DNA of 64,000 bases from Blattabacterium cuenoti (GTDB taxonomy: Bacteria; Bacteroidota; Bacteroidia; Flavobacteriales; Blattabacteriaceae): positions 434,001 to 498,000 of the forward strand of contig NZ_CP059181.1 in the NCBI RefSeq assembly GCF_014251235.1. Direction: 5' to 3'. This document shows, one piece after another, positions 2,923-49,244 of this stretch. The notes below the pieces were generated by a model. It was not told where the DNA came from, searched no databases, and worked only from the letters and a program-made list of their open reading frames with translations. Position 1 is the stretch's first letter; every line of letters starts with the position of its first letter. Position numbers and translations under genes: made by a program.

Positions 2923-2930
2923 TACATTTG
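2923..2930 (+). promoter_or_regulatory. Probable -7 promoter element for idi
   Basis: TACATTTG matches the Bacteroidetes -7 consensus TAnnTTTG and lies 20 bases before the ATG at 2951. No good TTTG is found 19-21 bases further up, so this is a partial match. Its position supports idi starting at 2951, upstream of the frameshift, instead of at 3103. Confidence 0.4.
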
Positions 2931-2950: not shown

Positions 2951-3495
2951 ATGGAAAAAAAAAACGATTGTATTCCTTTAATAGGAAAAAACAATAAAAT
3001 AATAGGTTTTGAAGAAAAAAAAAAATCCACAAAAATGGTTTATTACATAGTGCAGTATCTGTTTTTATTTTTAAAAAAAGTAGAATTTTAAAAAAAAAGC
3101 CTATGTTAATGCTGCAAAGAAGATCATCCAAAAAATATCATTCTTCACTTTTATGGACAAATACTTGTTGCACACATCCAATAAAAAATGAAACGATTTT
3201 ATCAGCAGCACATCGTTGTTTAATAGAAGAAATGGGTTTTGATTGTTTTTTAGAAAAAAAATTTTTTTTTACTTATTATAAGTTACTTAATAATGGATTA
3301 ATAGAAAATGAATTAGATCACGTTTTTGTAGGTTATTATGATTACTCCCCTATTATAAATACCAAAGAAGTAGATAATTGGAAATGGATCACTTTAAAAG
3401 AGTTAATAGAAGATATCAAAATATACCCTGAATCTTATACCATTTGGTTTAAGATAATCATGAATAATTATTTAAGAAAAATTATAAATTATTAA
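2951..3495 (+). pseudogene. idi: Isopentenyl-diphosphate isomerase (type I), frameshifted at a poly(A) tract
   Basis: Interconverts IPP and DMAPP for isoprenoid synthesis (quinone side chain, undecaprenyl carrier). Two frames together give a normal Idi of about 181 residues. The first runs from ATG 2951 to the A11 tract at 3015-3025. The second continues with IHKNGLLHSAVSVFIF, LLWTNTCCTHP (catalytic Cys) and IENELDHVF (metal/catalytic Glu). Restoring the frame needs one extra A or two fewer. As written, the upstream frame stops at 3089-3091. The downstream frame has no ATG before 3103, and a product starting there would lack the two N-terminal metal-binding His of the IHKNGLLH segment. Everything else is intact, so transcriptional slippage may yield active enzyme. 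A sequencing error in the homopolymer is the main alternative. It heads an idi-queD-gcvT run. Confidence 0.82.
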
Positions 3496-8037: not shown

Positions 8038-9117
8038 ATGGCAGGTAATATTTTTGGAAACTTATTTAGAATTACAACCTTTGGAGAAAGCCATGGAGAA
8101 GCTTTAGGAGGAATCATAGATGGATGTCCTGCTGGAATAGAACTAAATTTTGAAGAAATACAAAATGAACTAAATAGAAGAAGACCTGGGCAATCTTCTA
8201 TTGTTACTCAAAGAAATGAACCTGATAAAGTTAATTTTCTTTCAGGAATTATAGGTAATAAAACTACAGGGACCCCTATTGGTTTTATTATTTATAATAA
8301 AGATCATAAATCTGAAGATTATAAACATATTCAGGATATTTATCGTCCTTCTCATTCTGATTTTACATATGAGAAAAAATATGGAATAAGGGATTATAGA
8401 GGAGGAGGACGTTCATCTGCTCGTGAAACTATATCTAGAGTTGTAGCTGGATCAATAGCAAAGCAATTAATCAAAGATATGAAAATTATATCTTACGTTT
8501 CTTCAGTTGGAAATATATCTATAAATAAATCTTATCAAGACTTAGATTTGTCTAAAATTGAAGAATCAACGATAAGATGTCCAGACACATATACTTCAAA
8601 TAAAATGATATCATTAATTCAAAAGGTAAAGAAAAAAGGAGATACAATAGGAGGAACTATTACTTGTGTAATTAAAAATGTACCTGTAGGAATAGGTGAA
8701 CCTATTTTTGATAAACTCCATGCAGAATTAGGTAAGGCTATGCTTTCTATTAATGCTGTCAAAGGATTTGAATATGGAAGTGGTTTTTTTGGATCAGAAT
8801 TAACAGGTTCTAAACATAATGATTTATTTAATAGTGATGGAAGTACAAAAACAAATTTCTCTGGAGGTATTCTAGGAGGGATATCAAATGGAATGGATAT
8901 TTACTTTAGAGTAGCTTTTAAACCTGTAGCTACTATTATACAAAAACAAAAAACTTTAGATAAACATGGAAATTTAGTTTTTATGAAAGGAAAAGGAAGA
9001 CACGATCCATGTGTTTTACCTAGAGCTATTCCAATTGTAGAATCTATGACGGCTTTAGTTCTTGCAGACTACTGGATGTATAGAAAGTTATCTAAATATT
9101 CATTAATAAGAAATTAA
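8038..9117 (+). CDS. aroC: Chorismate synthase
   Basis: Last step of the shikimate pathway: EPSP to chorismate, using reduced FMN. The 359-residue product has the three family signatures: GESHG at 16-20, RRRPGQ at 47-52 and [10 protein letters not shown] at 121-130. Full length. It feeds the isochorismate synthase at 1351 and aromatic amino acid synthesis; shikimate dehydrogenase (aroE) is at 51749. The next gene, miaA, begins six bases after its stop, so the two form an operon. The 122-base upstream gap has no promoter I would call. Confidence 0.96.
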
Positions 9118-9122
9118 AATCA

Positions 9123-10037
9123 TTGTTTTTAGTTTTAATATTGGGTCCAACAGGAATAGGAAAAACATCTTTATCCATTTTTTTAGCAAAAAAATTAAAA
9201 ACACAAATTTTATCTTGTGATTCTAGACAATTTTTTAAAGAATTGAAAATAGGAACTTCTATGCCTAATCTAAAAGATAGAAAATCTATTCCACATCATT
9301 TTATTGGTCATTTAAGTATACATGATAATTATAACGCTAGACTTTTTGAAATAGATTCCTTAAAAAAAATGCAAAAATTATTTCTAATACATCCTATTTT
9401 GATTATGGTAGGAGGTTCTGGTTTATATGAAAAATCCGTTACTGAAGGATTATCGGAAATACCAAAAATTGATGTGAATATAAGAAATGATCTAATTTTT
9501 AACTTTAAAAAAAAAGGAATTTCCTTTCTTAAAGAAGAATTGAATAAAATAGAAAAAAAAAATATACCCTTAATAGATCTAAATAATCCTAGACGTTTAA
9601 TTAGATTTTTAGAAATAATAAAATCAACAGGAAAACCCCCCCATGTTTTTTTCAAAAAAAAAAGAAGAAATTTTTCTATTATAAAAATAGGATTAACATT
9701 ACCTAGAGATGAATTATATTCCAAAATTAATACAAGAGTGGAAAAAATGATAAAAATGGGGCTTTTTGAAGAAGCAAAGACGTACTACATATTTAGACAT
9801 TTAAACAGTTTACAAACTATAGGGTATAAAGATATTTTCGATTTCTTATCCAAGAAAAAATATTCATCTTCATTTGTTGATGTTATAGAAAATATAAAAA
9901 AAAACACTAGAAGATATGCAAAAAGACAAATATGTTGGTATAAAAAAGATTTTTCAATTACTTGGTTTCATCCAAAAAATAGAGAAGAAATATTTTCATT
10001 TATTTTAAGAAAAACAAATGGGCAATACTGGATTTGA
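9123..10037 (+). CDS. miaA: tRNA dimethylallyltransferase, TTG start
   Basis: Adds the dimethylallyl group to A37 of tRNAs that read UNN codons. Walker A GPTGIGKT lies at 8-15 and the substrate motif SCDSRQF at 31-37; the C-terminal KNTRRYAKRQICWYKKD segment is typical. The only plausible start is TTG at 9123, six residues before the P-loop, as in most MiaA proteins. Length (304) is normal. Its last 19 bases lie inside the tRNA-Val gene on the opposite strand, so the final residues are encoded by the complement of the tRNA 3' half. Its DMAPP substrate depends on idi or the upstream pathway, which links it to the broken idi gene. Confidence 0.93.
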   Translation: MFLVLILGPTGIGKTSLSIFLAKKLKTQILSCDSRQFFKELKIGTSMPNLKDRKSIPHHFIGHLSIHDNYNARLFEIDSLKKMQKLFLIHPILIMVGGSGLYEKSVTEGLSEIPKIDVNIRNDLIFNFKKKGISFLKEELNKIEKKNIPLIDLNNPRRLIRFLEIIKSTGKPPHVFFKKKRRNFSIIKIGLTLPRDELYSKINTRVEKMIKMGLFEEAKTYYIFRHLNSLQTIGYKDIFDFLSKKKYSSSFVDVIENIKKNTRRYAKRQICWYKKDFSITWFHPKNREEIFSFILRKTNGQYWI

Positions 10038-10094
10038 ACCAGTGACCCCCTGCTTGTAAAACAGATGCTCTAAACCAGACTGAGCTAATTACCC
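10019..10094 (-). tRNA. tRNA-Val (UAC)
   Basis: 76-base cloverleaf read on the minus strand. The acceptor GGGTAAT pairs with ATTGCCC with one wobble. The D-stem is GCTC/GAGC, the anticodon loop TTTACAA gives anticodon TAC, and the T-arm is ACTGG-TTCAAAT-CCAGT. The discriminator is A and no CCA is encoded. It overlaps the 3' end of miaA by 19 bases. TACATTTG at 10128-10135 (minus strand) is a possible -7 promoter element. Confidence 0.93.
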
Positions 10095-48543: not shown

Positions 48544-49208
48544 TCACCACACTATAGGTTTTTTTCCATGATGAATTAAAAATTTATTAGCATTTAAAAA
48601 ATGTTTAGACCCTAAAAAACCTAAATTAGCGGAAAATGGTGAAGGATGTGAAGTTTTCAAGATATAATGATTGTTATTAGCATTAATTAAAAATGCTTTT
48701 TTCTTTGCAAAAGTACCCCACAACAAAAAAATAACATTTTTTTTTTATTTGAAATGATTTGAATAATTTTATCTGTAAAAATTTCCCATCCTTTATCTTT
48801 ATGAGATCTTGGAATACCTTCTCTTACAGTTAGAATAGAGTTAAGCAATAATACTCCTTGTTTAGCCCAACGAATTAAGGAACCACTTTTTGGTAATGAT
48901 TTTTTTCCGGGAAAACAATTGCTAACTTCTATAAAAATATTTTTTAAAGTAGGAGGAAACAAAATTCCATCGGGAACAGAAAAAGATAAACCGTCAGCTT
49001 GATGATCCCTGTAATATGGATCTTGTCCTATGATGACTATTTTTAATTTATTGAAAGAACAATAATGAAAGGATGAAAAAATATTATTTTTGTTTGGAAA
49101 ACAAATATGATTTTTATATTCATTTTTCAAAAAGATTAATAATTTTTTAAAATAATTCTGATTAAACTCAGATTTAATAATAAATCTCCAATTATCATTT
49201 TTTTCCAT
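48544..49208 (-). pseudogene. ung: Uracil-DNA glycosylase, frameshifted at a poly(A) tract
   Basis: Removes uracil from DNA after cytosine deamination. Frame one (from ATG 49208) carries the water-activating Asp in GQDPYYRDHQADGLSF and runs to an A10 tract (plus-strand T run 48737-48746). There the frame breaks, and it stops soon after at 48687-48689. The next frame continues LLWGTFAKKKAFLI and HPSPFSANLGFLGSKHF, the second catalytic motif, to the normal end (KKPIVW). One added A (or two fewer) restores about 221 residues, the usual Ung length. The motif is GQDPYY where GQDPYH is usual. Either a young pseudogene, slippage-rescued, or a sequencing error in the homopolymer. Confidence 0.85.
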
Positions 49209-49244
49209 AAAAAAAATATAATTTTATCATCTTATCAAATAACA

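Follow-up and report, generated by a model that had tools for sequence, protein, structure and literature searches.

A one-base split at a poly(A) tract in the idi gene of a Blattabacterium genome, and the case for rescue by slippage

Frameshifted genes rescued by slippage at poly(A) tracts have been described in the insect symbionts Buchnera and Blochmannia (Tamas et al. 2008; Wernegreen et al. 2010; as described in PMC3017870 and PMC5009743), and polymerase slippage on A runs of at least nine is established in bacteria and in both of these symbionts, with 12-50% of transcripts corrected (PMC5009743, PMC3017870). Nearer to the organism considered here, the Blattabacterium strains BPfu/BPja carry annotated "pseudogenes" of metG, lolD and mvaK, and of gltX, atpG and dnaN (PMC6039017), and the authors of the Candidatus Walczuchella genome remarked that genes with homopolymer frameshifts may still function (PMC3971599).

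The genome analyzed here (G000), from the cockroach symbiont Blattabacterium, carries a split idi gene that resembles the Buchnera and Blochmannia cases in its single indel within an A/T run of at least nine, in its AT-rich, obligate insect symbiont setting, and in being otherwise intact and constrained; cell-wall genes are again among those affected, and the relatives are either unbroken or split in parallel. It differs in that Buchnera and Blochmannia are Gammaproteobacteria with transcript evidence, whereas G000 belongs to the Bacteroidota and is known here from sequence alone, and in that idi and a mevalonate-pathway gene are affected. The BPfu/BPja genes belong to the same genus, are expected to be essential, and include one from the mevalonate pathway; the text of PMC6039017, however, makes no mention of frameshifts, and their link to the present splits is one that we infer. 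Candidatus Walczuchella is likewise a flavobacterial symbiont with homopolymer frameshifts, but of a different lineage, and the comment on its genes was a remark without a comparative test. The best explanation of the splits described below is that slippage rescue, already known in Buchnera and Blochmannia, would extend to the Bacteroidota.

Layout and identity of the idi gene

The window, a stretch of 64,000 bases, covers positions 434,001-498,000 of the 613,216-base single-contig genome, whose assignment to Blattabacterium is based on the named close relatives of its idi. In window coordinates, the features of idi are as follows.

2923-2930, plus strand: TACATTTG, a putative -7 element of the Bacteroidota type (TAnnTTTG), matching the literature consensus, 20 bases before the idi ATG
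2951-3014, plus strand: 5' part of idi, read from the ATG (MEKKNDCIPLIGKNNKIIGFEE) as far as the A tract; aligns with the N-terminal end of intact Idi from relatives
3015-3025, plus strand: A11 tract at which idi is split; one further A would bring it to an in-frame length
3013-3495, plus strand: downstream frame of idi, open to the stop at 3493-3495, with both His ligands and the WTNTCCTHP and ENE motifs
3103-3495, plus strand: longest ATG-started ORF of the downstream frame, 130 aa, without either N-terminal His ligand

The original prediction, made from the sequence of this locus, was of an idi gene split by one base at an A11 tract and free of other lesions, with a -7 element 20 bases before the ATG of its upstream frame, the catalytic Cys and Glu kept in its downstream frame, and no single-frame ATG product containing both N-terminal His residues; all of these points held. 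The run lies exactly at 3015-3025 and the ATG frame exits there, such that the upstream frame, which opens at the ATG (2951-3091, 46 aa), departs from the family sequence after the A11 and ends in an unrelated tail. The codons for the N-terminal His residues, CAC at 3028-3030 and CAT at 3046-3048, directly follow the tract and are read in the downstream frame only; because the first ATG of that frame, at 3103, comes after both of them, no ATG-started single-frame product can contain both ligands. Both frames read through, and no stop or frameshift was found in G000 idi besides the A11 split. The putative -7 element also recurs upstream of idi in G045 and G017, as TACATTTG/TATATTTG.

On its own, the downstream frame scores best against isopentenyl-diphosphate delta-isomerase models, namely PRK03759 (106 bits, cut-off 127) and TIGR02150 (75 bits, cut-off 106), and thus falls below both cut-offs, as a partial gene product may. 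The WTNTCCTHP (Cys/His), ENE (Glu), and LLH motifs align to solved Idi chains, and the catalytic Cys and Glu and the His metal ligands of type-1 enzymes are all present. Judged by these residues, idi encodes a genuine type-1 isopentenyl-diphosphate isomerase. The 130-residue ORF from the ATG at 3103 is available as an internal start, and the downstream frame might then be translated alone as a shorter working enzyme; we consider this highly improbable, as the product would lack the beginning of the fold as well as the two N-terminal His metal ligands, and the upstream frame has also been retained.

The presumed need for Idi and the constraint on its gene

Using searches with working controls, IspH (PF02401) was absent from all 49 Blattabacterium genomes, and IspG was not found in G000; an MEP pathway that would render Idi dispensable was rejected on these grounds. 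HMG-CoA reductase was likewise found in none of the 49. Genus-wide, with neither IspH nor HMG-CoA reductase in 49 genomes, the isoprenoid pathway would begin at mevalonate. Such a mevalonate-fed pathway directly yields IPP only. G000 carries a mevalonate kinase, a GHMP kinase, an mvaD-like gene, and an intact polyprenyl synthase, and a metabolic model of Blattabacterium proposes that host mevalonate is imported (PMC3819652). No type-2 isomerase scored above the cut-off in G000; the only candidate substitute for Idi, a partial match of 19.6 bits in a 521-aa ORF, was rejected as far under the cut-off of 281 bits. Since IspH, IspG, and a type-2 isomerase above cut-off are all missing from G000, Idi is its sole recognized route to DMAPP, one of the two isoprenoid building blocks, and from what is known of the pathway the enzyme would be required.

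The original prediction also proposed comparing the tract among related strains. In all 48 other Blattabacterium genomes idi is uninterrupted, as a single open frame with 63-78% identity, leaving G000 as the only genome in which it is split; Candidatus Shikimatogenerans, another flavobacterial symbiont, also retains an idi relative. At the site of the tract, the relatives mostly read GAA AAA AAA GAA AAA ATT CAT, in which the longest A run is 8, whereas in G000 the last Glu codon of the stretch has become all A, giving an unbroken run. The likely history, going by this alignment, is that the interrupting base was lost, turning a Lys/Glu-rich stretch into one long A run, and that the run then lost one A through replication slippage. 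Long idi tracts also occur in frame elsewhere, as A12 in G032, A15 in G003, and A10 in G012. In G042, a compensated pair of indels places some 12 residues ahead of the first His in another frame, after which the frame is restored; the rewritten residues are GKKIRLLDLKKKNKIH, versus GKKNQIIGFEKKEKIH in relatives.

Between G000 and six relatives, idi dN/dS values were 0.10-0.20, not above those of intact pairs (0.07-0.32, with the G006/G013 pair, at 0.56, left out). Purifying selection on the G000 gene is thus evident, although a very young lesion would look alike; by the same token, neither relaxed selection nor further lesions were found in G000 idi, as would also be the case in a very young pseudogene. 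Because dN/dS is not raised, an unrescued lesion must be very young or non-existent. Recent true inactivation, with idi a young pseudogene and DMAPP either supplied by the host or unneeded, would account for a lesion confined to a single genome; poly(A) indels do cost obligate symbionts genes, and in this genus HMG-CoA reductase is already gone while import of host mevalonate has been modeled. Even so, we judge it quite unlikely: beyond the dN/dS values and the retention of idi both in all 48 relatives and in Candidatus Shikimatogenerans, it would have idi, murE, murB, and mvaD dying together while mevalonate kinase, polyprenyl synthase, and the other genes of the cell wall are unaffected.

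Split genes elsewhere in the genome and the genus

All tracts of at least A11 in G000 were listed and, together with the contig end, inspected with their flanks; the scan of shorter tracts covered 245 kb (the window, the regions flanking the A>=11 tracts, the terminal portion of the contig, and the cell-wall cluster). Among the coding tracts of at least A11, about 51 in number, four were split: those in idi, in the mvaD-like diphosphomevalonate decarboxylase gene (G000:C1:286103-287146, split at an A12 at 286298), in murE (A11, G000:C1:256650), and in murB (A11, G000:C1:270993). A fifth split, at an A10, lies in the window itself.

48547-49223, minus strand: ung; the N part (48690-49223) and the C part (48547-48744) match adjoining pieces of one family profile
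48737-48746, minus strand: A10 tract (in the sense direction) splitting ung, uracil-DNA glycosylase, the second such gene in the window

Each of the five would need one more A to reach an in-frame length, and 12 of the 14 splits seen genus-wide are likewise one A short. Four of the four A>=11 splits fall in a cell-wall/isoprenoid module, versus about 8 of 45 tract-bearing genes (p ~5e-4), but this grouping was post hoc and the figure is a lead only. Splits occurred in 5 of 88 A-sense and 0 of 14 T-sense tracts, a comparison that is powerless. Around the split murE, the genes ftsI, mraY, murD, ftsW, murG, murC, ftsQ, ftsA, and ftsZ are intact; the cell-wall pathway is therefore not decaying as a block, and pathway decay as the main cause of the splits was rejected.

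An undercall during assembly or base calling has to be weighed, in which the true tract would be in frame and idi, with some or all of the other split genes, intact. The confinement of the G000 splits to A10-A12, and the preponderance of tracts one base short both there and genus-wide, are what a systematic undercall would give. However, G000 has about 47 further A11-A14 tracts in coding sequence that were called in frame, including those of prfA, dnaE, secD, and yidC at A12. The split fraction also fails to climb with length, at 3/31 for A11 and 1/20 for A>=12, where base-calling error would tend to yield an increase (Fisher p = 1; powerless, so suggestive only), and none of 114 A9 tracts was split in the 245-kb scan. 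Moreover, mvaD is split at one spot in seven different genomes. We regard an undercall as the main rival to slippage rescue, a possibility to be taken seriously, albeit a doubtful one.

By comparison among the assemblies, the idi split is one instance of a pattern found across the genus, and that pattern is of greater interest than the single case. In 7 of 49 genomes (G000, G005, G028, G018, G040, G043, and G047) mvaD is split, always at an A10-A13 within one common Lys-rich stretch, and is otherwise intact; a split murE occurs in G003 and G019 as well, and a split murB in G000 only. A tree of Idi plus MvaD groups G018 and G040 as sisters with full support, and their split mvaD genes have a common -1 state, with a dS of 0.47 and a dN/dS of 0.11 over 239 codons, lower than the 0.26 of their intact idi. 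An inherited split would mean that selection has maintained the gene despite its broken frame. Independent origins are possible for the two splits because split and intact states are mixed at one site within both the G005/G028/G030 and the G043/G047/G001/G041 groups.

Probable slippage rescue and its possible consequences

The original prediction left a choice between slippage on the A tract and a very recent lesion, and the comparison favors the former, with recent true loss the less likely. Slippage is favored over plain loss by the position of Idi as sole DMAPP source, the dN/dS values, the parallel splits, the intact cell-wall cluster, and the recurrence of splits in mvaD. Slippage-rescued expression of idi is thus our best explanation, unproven but with a probability of roughly 0.55. 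RNA polymerase would slip on the A11, adding one A in part of the idi transcripts; alternatively, ribosomes would slip by -1 on the run. Either way, a fraction of full-length Idi would be produced, and the same process would leave murE, murB, mvaD, and ung usable in G000. Because idi and several further cell-wall and isoprenoid genes with splits look fully constrained, the proteins are probably still made via slippage; that enough full-length protein results, and by which kind of slippage, is our inference.

A -1 ribosomal shift on the A run (A_AAA_AAA), a sub-case of rescue, would bring each of the five split G000 genes back into frame, and 12 of the 14 splits genus-wide are of that sign. The mvaD genes of G005 and G028 are shifted in the opposite direction, however, and the precedents in symbionts are transcriptional; a ribosomal mechanism in place of transcriptional slippage seems unlikely. 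We offer tentatively, and with some doubt of our own, that Blattabacterium as a genus lives with slippage-rescued poly(A) splits in the low-demand cell-wall and isoprenoid genes mvaD, murE, murB, and idi. A partial loss of dosage might be tolerated or even favored in this linked pathway, which would explain why splits keep arising in it and not in genes under high demand.

Should the splits prove real, insect symbionts of a second phylum would rescue broken genes by slippage, and interrupted reading frames would sustain cell-wall and isoprenoid synthesis, though at reduced dose. Blattabacterium genes filed as pseudogenes, and the metabolic models that use them, would then need re-reading. For all of this mvaD, split in so many genomes, provides a ready comparative test. 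A further tract concerns miaA, encoding tRNA dimethylallyltransferase, a user of DMAPP: the gene is intact in the G000 window (9096-10034), and it is split at an A11 in G020 (locus L191, ~9990-10060).
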